From Solobacterium sp. (GTDB lineage: Bacteria > Bacillota_I > Bacilli_A > Erysipelotrichales > Erysipelotrichaceae): a DNA stretch of 45,165 nt. Positions 4,449-15,295 of this stretch are shown here, in pieces (the stretch's first letter is position 1; each line of letters begins with the position of its first letter). A program made the position numbers and the translations under genes. The notes beneath the pieces were generated by a model, which searched no databases, was not told where the DNA came from, and saw only the letters and a list, made by a program, of their open reading frames with translations. The DNA is taken from the NCBI GenBank assembly GCA_017510405.1, contig JAFWNG010000035.1, positions 1 through 45,165 on the forward strand, written 5' to 3'.

Positions 4449-5432
4449 TTATTCCCACTCGATCGTGCCGGTCGGCTTCGGTGTCAGATCGTATAATACA
4501 CGGTTGATGCCATCGACCTCGTGTGTGATCCGGTATGTGATCTTCTTCAGCAGATCATACGGGATCTCTTCGATCGCAGCTTCCATGGCATCCGTCGTAT
4601 TGACGGCACGGATCACGGCAAAGTATTCAAAGGAACGATTGCCGTTCTTGATGCCGGTGCTCTTGAAGTCCGGTACGATCGTGAAGTACTGCCATACCTT
4701 GCCCTGCAGGCCGGCATTGGCAAATTCTTCGCGGAGGATCGCATCGCTTTCACGCAGTGCTTCCAGACGGTCGCGTGTGATCGCACCCGGGCAGCGTACA
4801 GCAAGTCCCGGCCCCGGGAATGGCTGACGCTCTACCATGTTTTCCGGAAGACCGAGTGCCTTTCCGACAACGCGTACTTCGTCCTTGAAGAGAAGTTTGA
4901 CCGGTTCGACCAGTTCCATTTCCATCTCTTCCGGCAGACCGCCTACGTTGTGATGAGCCTTGATGCCCTTCTCGCTTTCGAGAATGTCCGGATAGATCGT
5001 TCCCTGCGCGAGGAAATGAATACCTGTGAGTTTTGCGGCTTCTTCATCAAATACCTTGATGAACTCTTCACCGATAATATGACGCTTCTGTTCCGGGTCA
5101 TTGACGCCGGCAACTTTTTCCAGGAAGCGCTCTGAGGCATCCACATAGATGAGGTTAGCGTTCATCTGGTTGCGGAATACTTCGATGACCTGTTCCGGTT
5201 CCCCTTTGCGCAGGAAACCATGGTTAACATGAACACAGACGAGATTCTGGCCGATTGCCCTGATCAGAAGTGCTGCGACAACGGACGAGTCGACACCGCC
5301 GGATAATGCCAGAAGGACTTTGCCGTCCTTGACCTGTTCACGGATCGCTGCGACCTGTTCTTCGATAAATGCGTCTGCGAGTTCTTTAGTGGTAATGCGG
5401 ATCATGTCTTCGGGACGTTTGTTGCTGTCCAT
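4449..5432 (-). CDS. guaA: GMP synthase, ATP-pyrophosphatase half only
   Basis: This 327-residue protein matches the C-terminal two thirds of GuaA, which converts XMP to GMP with ATP and ammonia. The PP-loop is [10 protein letters not shown] at residues 42-50; the dimerisation domain follows, with [25 protein letters not shown] and the family ending [15 protein letters not shown]. The N-terminal class I glutaminase domain (about 190 residues in usual bacterial GuaA) is absent: the ORF starts at an ATG with a perfect AAGGAGGA site, and no glutaminase ORF lies upstream, where RsmF is divergent. It may use free ammonia or a separate amidotransferase subunit, as archaeal GuaAb does with GuaAa. 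Confidence 0.93.
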
Positions 5433-5493
5433 ACGATTCCTCCTTTTTATGTTGATTGATTATAGCATTGTTTTTGCCGGTGCGCATTATTTC

Positions 5494-5522
5494 TTGGCAC
5501 ATCTGTTTTATATGAGTATGAT
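5494..5522 (+). promoter_or_regulatory. Promoter of rsmF, likely leaderless
   Basis: TTGGCA (5494-5499), a 17-base spacer and TATGAT (5517-5522) end six bases before the ATG of rsmF. Transcription would start at or next to the ATG. No Shine-Dalgarno sequence is present. Confidence 0.6.
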
Positions 5523-5528
5523 GAAGCC

Positions 5529-6866
5529 ATGAAACTGCCTGAAACATACGTACAGCATATGCAGGAACTGCTGCAGGAGGAACTCGATGACTACCTGCGC
5601 GCCATGGATGAAAAGCCGGCAAACGCCCTGCGCGTCAACACGCTGAAGATCTCCCCGGAAGAATTCCGGAAGATCGCTCCGTTTGAACTGACGCCGGTCC
5701 CCTGGTGCCGCAGCGGATTCATTTACGGAGAGAACGACCGTCCCGGAACCCATCCGTATTATTATGCCGGTCTGTATTACATGCAGGAGACAAGCGCCAT
5801 GGTGCCGGCGGAGATCCTGCCGGTGGAAGACGGTGATCTTGTGCTCGACGCATGCTGTGCGCCGGGCGGAAAAAGCACTGCCCTGGCGTGCAAGCTGCGC
5901 GGGACCGGCGTCCTTCTCAGCAACGATATTTCCGCCTCCCGGCAGAATGCGACGCTGAAGAACATGGAGCGCTTCGGCATAACGAATGCGTACATTACGG
6001 CGGCGGATCTGAACGGTCTTGCGGACCGCTTTCCCGAGACATTCGACAAGATCCTGCTGGATGCCCCCTGTTCCGGGGAAGGCATGTTCCGCCGTGATCC
6101 GTCTCTGATCAGAGCATGGGAGGAAAAAGGCAGCGCGTACTATGCGCCGCTTCAGAAAGAACTCATACTGGCAGCTGCGAAGATGCTGAAAAAAGGCGGA
6201 ATGATGGTCTATTCCACCTGTACGTTCGCAAAAGAAGAAGATGAGGAAGTCGTACAGCATCTGTGCGAAACAATGCCGGATCTGCATGTGATCCCCGTAC
6301 CGAACCGGTATGAAGGATTCATGCCGGGCATCGTGAACGGCTGTGAAGACTGCGTGCGCCTGTATCCGCACAAACTGCGCGGCGAGGGACATTTCGCTGC
6401 CCTGCTGCAGAAAGACGACAGCTCTGGCGACACTGCTGTGAAAGCGAAAAGTGACCGGATGCCGAAAGAAGCGGAAGAGTTCATGAAGCTGCTTTCCGGA
6501 CGGCTGAAGAACGGAACGCTTTCCTGCCGGAACGATCAGCTATATATACTTCCTGAGGGAATGACAGATATGCACGGGATCCGCGTGATCCGCAGCGGTC
6601 TGCATCTCGGCACGGTGAAAAACGGCCGTTTTGAACCGTCGCAGGCACTGGCCTTCGCGTGTACGCCAGAAGACTTTGCCAATTGTATCCGTCTTGACGC
6701 GGACGATCCCGCGGTCATGAAATACCTGCGCGGGGAAACGATCTTCTCGGAAGAAGGAAACAGCGGCTGGGTGCTTGTGTGCGTCGGAAGATGGCCGCTC
6801 GGCTTCGGCAGAAAACAGGAAAAAACCATCAAGAACAAAATACAGAAAGGGTATCGGATGCTGTGA
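5529..6866 (+). CDS. rsmF: RsmF-type 16S rRNA m5C methyltransferase
   Basis: A 445-residue NOL1/NOP2/Sun-family RNA cytosine-C5 methyltransferase. SAM motif I is DACCAPGGKS (107-116), motif IV is DAPCSGEG (178-185) and motif VI is YSTCTF with the catalytic Cys near 231. The C-terminal portion (about 300-445) contains the RsmF-specific RNA-binding region with PUA-like strands (GIRVIRSGLHLGTVKNGRFEP). It probably modifies 16S rRNA in the cytoplasm. The stop codon lies inside the loop of the terminator at 6850-6881. It has no ribosome site before the ATG. Confidence 0.92.
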   Translation: MKLPETYVQHMQELLQEELDDYLRAMDEKPANALRVNTLKISPEEFRKIAPFELTPVPWCRSGFIYGENDRPGTHPYYYAGLYYMQETSAMVPAEILPVEDGDLVLDACCAPGGKSTALACKLRGTGVLLSNDISASRQNATLKNMERFGITNAYITAADLNGLADRFPETFDKILLDAPCSGEGMFRRDPSLIRAWEEKGSAYYAPLQKELILAAAKMLKKGGMMVYSTCTFAKEEDEEVVQHLCETMPDLHVIPVPNRYEGFMPGIVNGCEDCVRLYPHKLRGEGHFAALLQKDDSSGDTAVKAKSDRMPKEAEEFMKLLSGRLKNGTLSCRNDQLYILPEGMTDMHGIRVIRSGLHLGTVKNGRFEPSQALAFACTPEDFANCIRLDADDPAVMKYLRGETIFSEEGNSGWVLVCVGRWPLGFGRKQEKTIKNKIQKGYRML

Positions 6867-9334: not shown

Positions 9335-9361
9335 CGAAAAGAAAACGGCAGGTGCCGTTTT
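9335..9361 (-). terminator. Terminator of the met transporter operon
   Basis: On the minus strand AAAACGGCA and TGCCGTTTT pair across two bases and run into TTCTTTTC. The stem touches the metI stop codon. Confidence 0.75.
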
Positions 9362-9996
9362 CAGGAAAGTCTCTTATACATCCAGTTGCCGAGCATCTGC
9401 ACCAGCTGTACGAAGATGATCAGGATGATCGAACAGATGATCAGATATTCGGTATTGTAGGACTGGTAGCCGTAGCGGATGGCAATATCGCCGAGTCCCC
9501 CGCCGCCGACGGTTCCCGCCATGGCGGAATAGCCGACCAGGCTGATCGTGAGCAGAATGACGCCGTTCAGCATGCGCGGAATGGATTCCTTGATATAGAC
9601 CCTGAACAGGATCTGCCAGTCACCGGCGCCGAATGAACGGGCTGCCTCAATGACGCCGGGATCCGTTTCCCGCAGGCTTGTTTCAAAGACACGCGCAATG
9701 TAGGGGATCGCAGATACCGTTAACGGCACGATGGCAGCGGTCGTTCCGATGGAGCGGCCGGCAACGAAGCGCGTAAACGGAATGATCAGAACAAGCAGGA
9801 TGATAAACGGGAACGAGCGGAATACATTCACGATGAAGCTCAGCGTCTCGTATACCGGCTTGTTCGGACGCAGGCCGTCCGGTGCCGTCAGGGTCAGGAT
9901 GATCGCTGGCAGGAAGCCCAGGATCACCGACAGAAGCGTGGACCAGAACACCATATACAGGGTCTGACCGGTCGCTTTCAGAATAATATCCATCAT
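9361..9996 (-). CDS. metI: Methionine ABC transporter permease
   Basis: A 211-residue integral membrane protein with about five transmembrane segments. The permease coupling region reads ARSFGAGDWQILFRVYIKESIPRML, fitting the EAA loop that contacts MetN. The family partner set MetN and MetQ lies immediately upstream, so it forms the channel for D/L-methionine. It overlaps the end of metN by four bases (ATGA-type overlap), and the operon ends at the hairpin at 9335-9361. Confidence 0.95.
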   Translation of the reverse strand: MMDIILKATGQTLYMVFWSTLLSVILGFLPAIILTLTAPDGLRPNKPVYETLSFIVNVFRSFPFIILLVLIIPFTRFVAGRSIGTTAAIVPLTVSAIPYIARVFETSLRETDPGVIEAARSFGAGDWQILFRVYIKESIPRMLNGVILLTISLVGYSAMAGTVGGGGLGDIAIRYGYQSYNTEYLIICSIILIIFVQLVQMLGNWMYKRLS

Positions 9997-10961
9997 GATT
10001 CAAGTACCTCCCACGCAACGTGCATGCGGTCCAGATATTCCAGGACTTCGTCTTTGTCATCCTCGCGGATATTGATCACCAGGCTGCCGTAGACATTCGA
10101 GCGGAAGTCTTCCAGCTTGCCCCAGCAGATGCTGAAGTCGATATTGAGCTGGCGCGCCATCATGGTAATGACCGGATCTTTGGAACGGTCGGTGAAGAAC
10201 AGCTGGATATTGACGCCTCTTCCCGGCAGCATACCGCTTTCTTCCTGCAGGAACGCCTTGACTTCCCTGATCGGCCGGATGAACAGTTCTTCCGGTCTTC
10301 CTTCCGCCAGTACAGTTCCGTCTTTCAGGAAGGATACCCGCTGGCAGATCTGTTTGACGACTTCCATCTGGTGGGTAACGACGATGATCGTGATGCCCAT
10401 CTCTTCGTTGATCTTCTGCAGCAGCGTCAGGATCTCCCGCGTGATCGCCGGATCCAGCGCGGACGTCGCTTCATCGCACAGCAGGATGCCGGGATCCAGG
10501 ACAAGCGACCGGGCAATGGCGACGCGCTGTTTCTGTCCGCCGGAAAGCTCGCTCGGACGGGAGTGGACCTTGTCTTCGAGACCGACCAGTTTCAGCAGCG
10601 ACAGGATCTTTTCTTTCGCTTCCGGCGTCTTTGTCTTCATGCCCCAGAATTTCATCGGCAGCGCGACGTTGTCATAGACGTCCAGACGGTTCAGCAGGTT
10701 GAAGTTCTGGAAGATCATTCCCATATTCTTCTGCATGAGATGCAGCTTTTTCGCGTCCTTCTGTGATACGGTCTCCCCTTCGACAGTGATCGTGCCGCCG
10801 TCGTAGGATTCCAGCCCGTTGATGCAGCGCAGCAGCGTGGATTTGCCGGCACCGCTCTGACCGATGATCCCGTAGATCTCATGATCCTGTATCGTCATGG
10901 AGATCCCCTTCAGCACTTCGAGGTCTCCGAAATTCTTTCGTACATTCTTCAGTTCTATCAT
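9993..10961 (-). CDS. metN: Methionine ABC transporter ATPase with NIL domain
   Basis: A 322-residue ATP-binding subunit. Walker A is GQSGAGKST (near 34), the signature LSGGQKQRVAIARS and Walker B ILLCDEATSALD. The last 75 residues form the NIL domain typical of MetN, where cytoplasmic methionine binds and shuts down transport. The start has GAGGA upstream. Between metQ and metN there is a strong hairpin (10981-11006), which probably sets a lower expression of metN and metI than of metQ. Confidence 0.96.
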   Translation of the reverse strand: MIELKNVRKNFGDLEVLKGISMTIQDHEIYGIIGQSGAGKSTLLRCINGLESYDGGTITVEGETVSQKDAKKLHLMQKNMGMIFQNFNLLNRLDVYDNVALPMKFWGMKTKTPEAKEKILSLLKLVGLEDKVHSRPSELSGGQKQRVAIARSLVLDPGILLCDEATSALDPAITREILTLLQKINEEMGITIIVVTHQMEVVKQICQRVSFLKDGTVLAEGRPEELFIRPIREVKAFLQEESGMLPGRGVNIQLFFTDRSKDPVITMMARQLNIDFSICWGKLEDFRSNVYGSLVINIREDDKDEVLEYLDRMHVAWEVLES

Positions 10962-11030: not shown

Positions 11031-11924
11031 TCAGTTGTTAATGGTTCCGATGTTTTCCGGTTCGATCGGAGCACCGTTCAGCAGGCCGATCGCATTCAGG
11101 AAGTCGATCGCACGGCCGTAGTTGTCGGTATCGTTCGGTACGCCGATGGACGCGCCGTCCGCCAGGTCTTTCAGATCTGTGATCTTTTTGGAATAGATTC
11201 CCATCGGTTCAATATGAACGCCTACGGAAGCGACCAGATGCAGTCCTCTTTCACTGTTCTGACCGTTCAGGTAACCGAGTGTCTGGAAGTAGTTGGCATC
11301 CAGTTCGCCTTCTTCCAGGGATGTGTTCGGCAGGACGTAGTCACTGAATTCCATGACTTTGAGTTCCCAGCCGTACTGAGCCAGCGTCGGCTTGATGATG
11401 TTGTTGAGGATCTCGGCATGCGGTACCAGAGTAGCGCCGACGGTGATGACCTTGTCATCGCCTGCCTGCGGGATCTCGCCGCCGCTTACCGGCTTGCCGT
11501 CCGCATCGATGAACGATGTGATGACTGCGCCCTTGTAGGTGTCTTCGATGTATTTCTTGACTTCCTCGGAAGTGATCGCAGCGACCAGAGCCTTCGTCTT
11601 GTCCGTGTCTTCATTGCCTTCTTTTACCGCAAGATAGTTTGTGCGGCGCACGCTTGTCTCAGCGTCGAACTCCTCGATCGCGATCGCCGGGTTTGTTTCG
11701 TTCAGCTTCGCTTCCAGCGCATAGTTGCCGTTGATCGCCGCAATGTCGAGATCCGGAAGATTGAGCGGCAGGTTGGCTGCTTCGACCGGTACGATCTCAT
11801 AACCGTGCGGGTTCACGCTGTTTTTCGGCGTGCTGTCTGTTTTTGCCGATTCTGAGGATGAAGAACATCCGGCCAGTGTCAGGATAAGTGCTGCAGATGC
11901 GAGTGTTTTCAGTGTCTTTTTCAT
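11031..11924 (-). CDS. metQ: Circularly permuted MetQ/NlpA methionine-binding lipoprotein
   Basis: A 297-residue lipoprotein with signal peptide and lipobox LAGC (Cys20). The order of the MetQ fold is inverted. Residues 38-138 (YEIVPVEAANLP, AAINGNYALEAKL, TSEEVKKYIEDTYKGAVI) match the usual C-terminal half. A linker of about 19 residues follows (139-157). Residues 158-297 (ITVGATLVPHAEIL, DYVLPN, GELDANYFQ, IEPMGIYSKK, VPNDTDNYGRA) match the usual mature N-terminal half. The protein stops at ENIGTINN, where normal MetQ would continue into NPxxxxIVExxAxxLP, exactly the first permuted segment. All ligand-pocket landmarks survive. The start has GGGAGGAAAG; an in-frame ATG at 12077 lies in the T-box and is rejected. 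It binds methionine for MetNI. Confidence 0.95.
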   Translation of the reverse strand: MKKTLKTLASAALILTLAGCSSSSESAKTDSTPKNSVNPHGYEIVPVEAANLPLNLPDLDIAAINGNYALEAKLNETNPAIAIEEFDAETSVRRTNYLAVKEGNEDTDKTKALVAAITSEEVKKYIEDTYKGAVITSFIDADGKPVSGGEIPQAGDDKVITVGATLVPHAEILNNIIKPTLAQYGWELKVMEFSDYVLPNTSLEEGELDANYFQTLGYLNGQNSERGLHLVASVGVHIEPMGIYSKKITDLKDLADGASIGVPNDTDNYGRAIDFLNAIGLLNGAPIEPENIGTINN

Positions 11925-11964: not shown

Positions 11965-12231
11965 CATTCGAAAGAAAAAGCCGCATCCCATAAGGACGCA
12001 GCTGTGCGTGTTACCACCTTACTTCGAAATGCCTTCCGGTCATTTCCTCCTTTGGTACGCAGATCGTTTCCTGTCATACCATATGACGTTAACGGGTCAT
12101 ACCGTCACAGCCTACATATCGGCTGTGCAGCTCCGGGGCCATGTTCGCGGGTGTCTTCTGTATTCCCTTTCACCAAAAGCAGGAATTCTCTGTGACAGTC
12201 CTCACCGGCTACTCTTCCCTTCTTCGCCTGT
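11965..12231 (-). ncRNA. T-box leader, methionine specifier
   Basis: Read on the minus strand, the leader contains a long stem I with the AGTA-type kink (GAAGAGTAG), the distal AGAGAA...GGTGAAA loop elements and the specifier loop GCGAACATGGCCCCGGAGC. By comparison with known T-boxes the specifier is ATG at 12142-12140, that is Met. A CACAGCC/GGCTGTG stem (stem II) follows. The T-box itself is AAGTAAGGTGGTAACACG at about 12025-12008. The terminator is GCTGCGTCC/GGGATGCGGC followed by TTTTTC. Uncharged tRNA-Met would favour the antiterminator and switch on metQNI. This accounts for the 390 bases between metQ and the next gene. Confidence 0.92.
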
Positions 12232-12237
12232 GCCTCT

Positions 12238-13096: not shown

Positions 13097-15295
13097 TCAG
13101 TTATTCAGATGACTGTGCACCGCGTGCAGCGCCATGACGACCGGATCAAGATCATTGACCGATGCCGGCAGATCCGAGAGCAACGCAATGACATAGCGTC
13201 CGTTGGAAGCGTAGACGATGCCCGCATCCGTGGAACTGCGGTATCCGTAGCCGCTGATCCAGCCGGCTTTGGACCGGGTATTCACATTCCCCGGTATTAC
13301 CGCGCGGATCGATGAAACATTCGGATCCTCACACAGGGAGCCGACACTGTCTCCGGCCGCGCCGGAATTGAAATACTCATCGCATACCGCCCAGAGCTTT
13401 GCCATTTCCCGGGCGGAGAGATACGCGTACATATCCGCCGTCACCGCACTGCGTACATTCGCATCTTCTCCGAATTCCGCAAACGTCGCCCCGTGGAACG
13501 TTTTCCAGAGATTGGCGTAGCCGGTATTGCTGGAAGTGTGCAGCACGTCCTCTGCCGTAGACCGCACCTGCAGGAAGCCGGTGTAATTGTATTTTGCCAG
13601 CGAAACGATATACGGCGCCTTGATCGCCGAAGCCGAATAGAACGTCATATCCGGATGGTACGAGATCCCCTTCCCGGACGTAAGATCCAGCATGACAAAG
13701 CCGATCGAATAGCCGCGTCTTTCTACGGTATTCACCGCCGTCCGCAGCATATCCGCTTCCGCAGACGTCAGGACCCAGCCGTTGAAGCCGGCGATCGAAG
13801 AAGCGGACATCGCGCTGTCCAGCGAGGCGATCGGATTGGCGAGTTCTGCCTGGATGCCTGCTTTCCGGCATCGTTCCTTGAATTCCGGAGACTTCAGGAT
13901 GAGTTCCAGAAGACCGGTCCTTCCGTAGGACTGCAGTTTGTTCACATTACTGATCGTTTCCGCTTCCGAAGCGCTGCGGCCAAGGACGCCCCGGTAGAGC
14001 ACCTGCACATATTCTTCATTGCTGAGAACGCGCTGCTGGAATTCCTTCGATTCCGCGAAGATGCGGATCATCTGCTTTCCGCCGAGATTCCGGAGATAGA
14101 GCAGCCGTGCATGCGTTTCCAGCCCGGAAACGTCCGCGTCTCTTCCCAGAAGACCGCGGTATACCGTAGAAACAAATTTCGTCAGTTCATAGCTGCGGTC
14201 GCGGTATGCGGTCACCGGGACCGTGCCGGGCGTCAGGCCGTTCTTCGCGCACAGCCGGATGAATTCCTGGGAACCGGCAAAGCCGTTTTCAATACTGCGG
14301 CGGGTCATGCCGACGTCCAGACGCGCCAGCCATACTGCCATTCCCGCGTCATCCGGTTCACGGTCAAAGAATACCCGGTAGCACTGCGCCGCAAACACGG
14401 CGTCACTCGTTTCCTTCTGCAGATACTCCCTGCCGGAGAAAAAGCCGTCGACGGCAGCCGCTGCCGTGATCGTTTTTGTCAGAAGATTCCTGCACCAGTT
14501 CTCGATCCGGTAGTCTTCGCCTTCCCGGCATAGCAGTTCCCTGTACATTCCCGAAACGAAACGGGTGACCGCCTGCCTCTTATCCCGGTAATACGGGGAT
14601 GTCAGGGTGCCCCTGTCGATTCCGTAGGACTGACACAGTTCGCCGAATTCAACGCTGTTTGTAAAGCCGGCCAGCACAAACAGCCTGCTCATGCCGTCAC
14701 TCAGCACCTGTATCCAGGTATTCAGGCCTTCCTCGTCCGCTTCCCGGTCAAGGACGGCCAGATATGCAGTGTTTATGTATTCTTCATCGGTCAGATCTCT
14801 GTCCTGCATTTCCGGACTCATGAAAAAGCCGAATGCAACATCAGCGCCGGTCATTTCCCGCCGTTCCAGCCGGCCGGTCCAGTCCGCCGCGCCTGCCTCG
14901 TCTTTTTCCCGCGCCAGCACGATCCGGTACATGCGGTCGGTAAAGCCTGCCGGTCCGCTTAATGGCTCCGGCTCCGGTTCATCTGCAGGTTCTTCTTCCC
15001 CGGGATCTTCCGGATCTTCTTCTCCAGGGTCTTCCGGATCCTCTTCCCCGGGTTCTTCCTGCGGCTCTTCCGCGCCGTTTTCTTCATCCCCGGACTGTTC
15101 CTCCGGTGTTTCTTCGCCGGCGGGTGTTTCCTCAGGGATCTCTTCATCCGGTTCTTCTTCGTCAGGAATTTCTTCCGACTGGCCGGTTTCTGCCGTCTCC
15201 GGCGTTACGCCGCTTTCTTCATTTTCCGCATATACAGGTACATGACAGAAAAAAAGACACAGCGCCATCCATATGTACAGGACTCTCTTCATCAT
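13097..15295 (-). CDS. Secreted DUF4214-repeat protein with beta-lactamase-fold domain
   Basis: A 732-residue exported protein. Residues 1-23 are a signal peptide ending VYA. About 24-115 is an extremely Glu/Pro-rich stalk. About 118-480 holds six related units with the DUF4214 pattern (YR..L.R..D..G...W, then GF..S.EF), equal to roughly three domains. About 500-732 is a serine beta-lactamase-like domain: SAIK (nucleophile Ser near 556, Lys near 559), SSN near 588-590 and KAG in place of KTG near 676. No class A Glu-x-x-Leu-Asn motif is evident, so a cell-wall or other serine hydrolase role is more likely than drug resistance. No LPxTG or transmembrane anchor is seen at the end. It stands alone with its own terminator. 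Confidence 0.85.
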   Translation of the reverse strand: MMKRVLYIWMALCLFFCHVPVYAENEESGVTPETAETGQSEEIPDEEEPDEEIPEETPAGEETPEEQSGDEENGAEEPQEEPGEEDPEDPGEEDPEDPGEEEPADEPEPEPLSGPAGFTDRMYRIVLAREKDEAGAADWTGRLERREMTGADVAFGFFMSPEMQDRDLTDEEYINTAYLAVLDREADEEGLNTWIQVLSDGMSRLFVLAGFTNSVEFGELCQSYGIDRGTLTSPYYRDKRQAVTRFVSGMYRELLCREGEDYRIENWCRNLLTKTITAAAAVDGFFSGREYLQKETSDAVFAAQCYRVFFDREPDDAGMAVWLARLDVGMTRRSIENGFAGSQEFIRLCAKNGLTPGTVPVTAYRDRSYELTKFVSTVYRGLLGRDADVSGLETHARLLYLRNLGGKQMIRIFAESKEFQQRVLSNEEYVQVLYRGVLGRSASEAETISNVNKLQSYGRTGLLELILKSPEFKERCRKAGIQAELANPIASLDSAMSASSIAGFNGWVLTSAEADMLRTAVNTVERRGYSIGFVMLDLTSGKGISYHPDMTFYSASAIKAPYIVSLAKYNYTGFLQVRSTAEDVLHTSSNTGYANLWKTFHGATFAEFGEDANVRSAVTADMYAYLSAREMAKLWAVCDEYFNSGAAGDSVGSLCEDPNVSSIRAVIPGNVNTRSKAGWISGYGYRSSTDAGIVYASNGRYVIALLSDLPASVNDLDPVVMALHAVHSHLNN
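15003..15050 (-). repeat. 24-bp tandem repeat in the acidic stalk
   Basis: Two near-identical 24-base units (15003-15026 and 15027-15050) encode the repeated peptide EEDPEDPG inside the stalk of the secreted protein. Such repeats change length easily by slippage. Confidence 0.75.

Follow-up and report, generated by a model that had tools for sequence, protein, structure and literature searches.

The metQ gene at 11031..11924 (minus strand) of the window, by which we mean the whole stretch of 45,165 nucleotides analysed, encodes a 297-residue lipoprotein in which the last part of the MetQ chain stands first. By sequence homology the protein is a permuted member of the NlpA family and no canonical one. 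We put at about 0.9 the probability that it serves a MetNIQ importer as the only methionine-binding lipoprotein and is a natural circular permutant, methionine binding being the predicted part of this assignment. Together with its relatives (group A) and two more clades of permuted proteins (B and C), it is best read, from the phylogeny, as one outcome of circular permutation that has affected a single receptor family, encoded in metNIQ operons, on at least three independent occasions.

The chain opens with a lipoprotein signal peptide (..LTLAGC; 11865..11924), recognized from the sequence, whose lipobox LAGC ends in the Cys at residue 20; this Cys is conserved in every aligned group A row that extends to it. 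The canonical C-terminal part is now first (residues 36-138; 11511..11819) and carries the equivalents of N202 and N229 of E. coli MetQ; it is followed by a 19-residue linker (residues 139-157; 11454..11510) and by the canonical N-terminal part, now last (residues 158-297; 11034..11453), with the equivalents of E. coli Y69, F86, H88 (Thr here), Y91 and R144. All of these elements lie on the minus strand. In the translation the C-part landmarks, NPHGYEIVPVEAANLP..INGNYALEA..RTNYLAVKEG..YIEDTYKGAVITSF, stand between the lipobox and the linker IDADGKPVSGGEIPQAGDD, and the N-part landmarks, KVITVGATLVPHAEIL..DYVLPN..LDANYFQTLGY..VHIEPMGIYSKK..GVPNDTDNYGRAI, come after it, the chain ending at ENIGTINN and a stop codon. 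PF03180 (Lipoprotein_9) matches with 220.7 bits (E=2e-65; Pfam gathering cut-off 27), its best stretch placing profile positions 1-122 on residues 160-282; in the genome profile search, positions 114-234 lie upstream of 1-122 within a single open frame. The protein is thus not colinear with the family profile and matches it as two stretches in swapped order. MetQ-family chains in the PDB are divided in the same way, as in 4k3f (4-126 on residues 159-282 and 117-240 on residues 12-138). These matches agree with the landmark order of the original prediction, which had placed swapped halves behind the lipobox and argued for permutation rather than duplication; each part indeed occurs once. With the parts of the parent exchanged and the old termini joined by a linker, the protein has the chain make-up of a natural circular permutant. 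A profile of normal-order MetQ finds two domains in it, at 188 and 140 bits; none of 500 shuffled copies scored above 4 bits. PF03180 is the only family matched in the Pfam search, which found no homology to MglB sugar-binding proteins. The NCBIfam MetQ/NlpA subfamily model TIGR00363 gives 121 bits, below its curated cut-off of 228.85; since two normal-order sisters also fall short (L026, 143.9; L024, 130.8), this model is tuned to other lineages.

Another 22 genomes, recovered by a public-genome search together with family-level and order-level searches, share this order and cut, so that group A comprises 23 genomes from three genera, the window genome included. In the window a T-box leader (11989..12233; RF00230 of Rfam, 111.3 bits, gathering threshold 93), metQ, metN and metI stand in line on the minus strand, which confirms the neighbourhood first proposed for the gene. 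metN (9993..10961) encodes an ATPase with a NIL domain (PF00005, ABC_tran, and PF09383) and metI (9361..9996) a permease (PF00528, BPD_transp_1); both lie directly downstream of metQ. AUG occupies the apparent specifier position of the T-box alignment, from which methionine specificity is predicted. Throughout group A metQ-metN-metI is retained wherever the contig is long enough, and 13 of the 16 relatives tested have a T-box above threshold. Profile search of the group A genomes finds a single NlpA-family gene per genome, in every case with the last part leading, and a second such gene was not found in the window genome. Standing alone in this way and lying in the metNI operon, the window metQ is probably the working receptor.

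The window genome is a draft of 46 contigs, and an assembly or binning error in a normal metQ could in principle give the same picture. This is hardly credible: the 22 other genomes come from several assembly projects and share the order, cut and linker at 63-88% identity (63-87% for the best segments of 21 loci, L003-L023, that the public-genome search found colinear with the window protein), their sources include several MAG projects and NK3D112, a record without a MAG label, and the reading frame of the window gene is intact. These independent assemblies rule out misassembly, and the order that the original prediction had taken to be real, and had proposed to look for in other genomes, is real. 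A permuted receptor for another ligand, such as a methionine derivative or a short peptide, is a more serious proposal, though still an unlikely one. In MetQ of N. meningitidis one lobe contacts methionine through R156, N213 and N238, the second through Y81, F98, H100 and Y103 (PMC6739813). The equivalents of these residues are invariant in all 44 permuted rows, with the one exception that group A has Thr in place of H100; this His to Thr exchange in the pocket would favour a different ligand, and it is also present in 17 of 42 normal-order rows, group A's sisters included. The invariant Asn, Arg, Tyr and Phe contacts, the AUG specifier of the T-box and the NIL domain of MetN all argue for methionine. 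Median dN/dS values of 0.16 (A), 0.10 (B) and 0.08 (C) indicate that the permuted genes are under purifying selection, and most likely they work as methionine receptors.

In groups B and C the chain is cut about 28 residues upstream of the group A cut, in the loop that connects the last strand of the N-part (..GIYGGKQTSLDAI) with the strand running into PNDTTNEAR (the PNDxxNxxR motif). Group B consists of nine genomes with a single NlpA gene in each and group C of 13 loci; in both, metQ stands with metN and metI, in the order metN-metI-metQ in group C. Group C copies can share a genome with normal-order genes, and one genome (G239) has two tandem normal-order metQ genes besides. Among the normal-order proteins found, the nearest sisters of C are fusions of MetI with MetQ. 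Their C-terminal tail and the loop where C is cut are already lengthened, which suggests that the cut landed in a loop that tolerated changes of length beforehand. In these fusions (PF00528 and PF03180, in normal order; L204:2210-3889 in G771 and L212:1468-3129 in G808) an additional hydrophobic segment, and no lipid, appears to tie the receptor to the permease. G771 was considered as a reversal within group C; this is unneeded, as holding C together gave the higher likelihood and the lengthened loop and tail are also found in the normal-order protein of G808 and a fragment from G795. Another unusual arrangement is a lipoprotein-like chain upstream of metN-metI (L135:3136-4692, G276), in which a normal-order MetQ domain comes after an SBP_bac_3 domain, so that a single chain holds two receptors. 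Outside the order the genome survey consisted of samples of 392, 395 and 98 genomes, and other permuted lineages may therefore exist.

For the phylogeny the permuted proteins (22 rows for A, 9 for B and 13 for C) were restored to canonical order and placed in one tree with proteins of normal order and with MetQ of E. coli. A and B each form one clade (99% SH-aLRT), and C is compatible with a single clade, the constrained tree having a likelihood above that of the free search. A and B sit among different normal-order MetQs, and C lies on a branch with E. coli MetQ. In the tree of MetN, B and C form one clade each and A does not; either this tree is weakly resolved, or permuted metQ may have moved between operons.

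Recurrence and route of origin each have a competing account. A single ancient permutation followed by reversals to normal order could be proposed for A, B and C because the cuts of B and C fall in one loop; it is very improbable, given that the group A cut differs, that the approximately unbiased tests, which covered the pairs A+B and B+C, reject both unions (p-AU 5.6e-7 and 2.8e-4, respectively), and that the closest proteins to each group are of normal order (72-74% identity for A, 54-59% for B, 58-63% for C). Independent permutations thus remain the best reading, and the linker of the window protein bears on how that of group A came about. Within the same bacterial family, sisters of normal order end in GAVITSF(I/V)DA(K/Q)GNPV and have a mature N-terminus ..DKVIKVGATLVPHAEIL; the start of the linker corresponds to their C-tail and its end to their N-terminal spacer, in keeping with the claim that it unites the original C- and N-termini. 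The normal gene nearest to both halves is the same (L025/L090, 73.6% for each), which argues that one ancestral metQ was rearranged and rules out a fusion of two unrelated halves or a chimera of two genes. We infer a route by tandem duplication, in which metQ would have been duplicated in tandem, the old C-end of one copy fused to the old N-end of the other, and the flanking halves lost to leave signal peptide, old C-part, linker and old N-part. Suitable starting material exists at the metQ locus, as tandem pairs of normal-order metQ are present in G239 (L137:3686-4684 and 5079-5996) and in L047 (4004-4774 and 5394-6167). The alternative, that metQ was split into two half-genes which rejoined in the opposite order with no tandem duplication, would give an identical end product, and a fused metQ-metQ intermediate was not found in the 212 loci; we consider it a minor possibility, as the same 212 loci contain no stand-alone half-gene apart from truncations at contig edges, tandem pairs do exist, and both old ends are retained in the linker.

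Many natural circular permutants are old and have diverged, which makes their origins hard to reconstruct. The permuted MetQ retains c. 74% identity to its sisters in each half and shares with them the T-box-metQ-metN-metI layout, and the family offers at least three events at two cuts. It resembles normal MetQ/NlpA proteins (PF03180; E. coli 4YAH; N. meningitidis 6CVA and 6DZX) in family, lipobox, contact residues and metN-metI partners, and differs in having the last part of the chain first and, by our reading, the anchor leading into the other lobe. Permuted binding proteins were known before. TpMglB-2 (Tp0684; type Ic or cluster Bc; PMC4990184) is likewise a natural permuted, lipid-anchored receptor of an ABC importer, and it has kept ligand binding; however, it belongs to the type I, sugar-binding fold class, and its permuted part is 13% identical to the parent, against about 74% per half here, so that its origin is blurred. 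OpuAC is reported to be circularly permuted relative to other binding proteins, ProX among them (PMC2395249), a comparable permutation between binding proteins of one kind (both for glycine betaine), but sequence identity below 24% marks it as ancient, and the ligand family is another one. DNA methyltransferases and swaposins (reviewed in PMC3320104) are permuted within one protein family, with duplication as the proposed route; they are not importer binding proteins, and their folds differ. Among open-licence papers we found no report of circular permutation in MetQ/NlpA. What is new here is a permutation origin that is recurrent, recent and well resolved. The MetQ permutants are a rare natural experiment on how rearranged proteins can remain functional, and a tractable system for asking how permutation arises, where binding proteins tolerate new ends and whether the choice of the lobe that bears the anchor matters. 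They also carry a warning for annotation, as a profile search with the NlpA family labels the permuted genes as ordinary and leaves the order unflagged.

The AlphaFold (AF2) model of the window protein is a confident one, with a pLDDT of 88.9 and a pTM of 0.81, obtained with an alignment to which separate halves of normal-order proteins had been added; these half-rows are silent across the junction, and the way in which the two halves pack against each other comes from the group A rows and from AlphaFold itself. An earlier model from a shallow alignment (pLDDT 71.6) and its fold search were too weak for use. Foldseek, which depends on chain order, matches MetQ-family chains over 69-157 columns, only part of the chain, as a permutant would give, and VIA-align superimposes the model on OpuAC in chain order over 195 residues (Z 11.1, rmsd 4.9). 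The permuted chain would still fold around methionine as a normal two-lobed receptor does, and would feed MetNI. The N-terminal Cys leads into the lobe of R144, N202 and N229 (E. coli numbering), so the lipid tether is expected on the opposite lobe from that in normal MetQ; this predicted shift follows from the lobes to which the contact residues belong. It is of interest because lipidation of N. meningitidis MetQ is reported to be necessary for maximal stimulation of MetNI (PMC8416018), and a similar anchoring idea has been proposed for the permuted MglB-2 (PMC4990184).

Some group A loci have additional elements near the operon. A large, unrelated gene for a putative acyltransferase-like membrane protein lies between the permuted metQ and metN in two genomes (L018:3835-5727 and L144:4449-6389), and in two relatives the T-box metQ-metN-metI operon has a SAM riboswitch close behind its downstream end (L124:1044-1131, minus strand; L021:6540-6627, plus strand). 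Elsewhere in the window, 13097-15295 on the minus strand encodes a 732-residue secreted protein that carries an acidic E/P/D/G repeat and DUF4214 repeats and, at its C-terminus, a Beta-lactamase2 domain.
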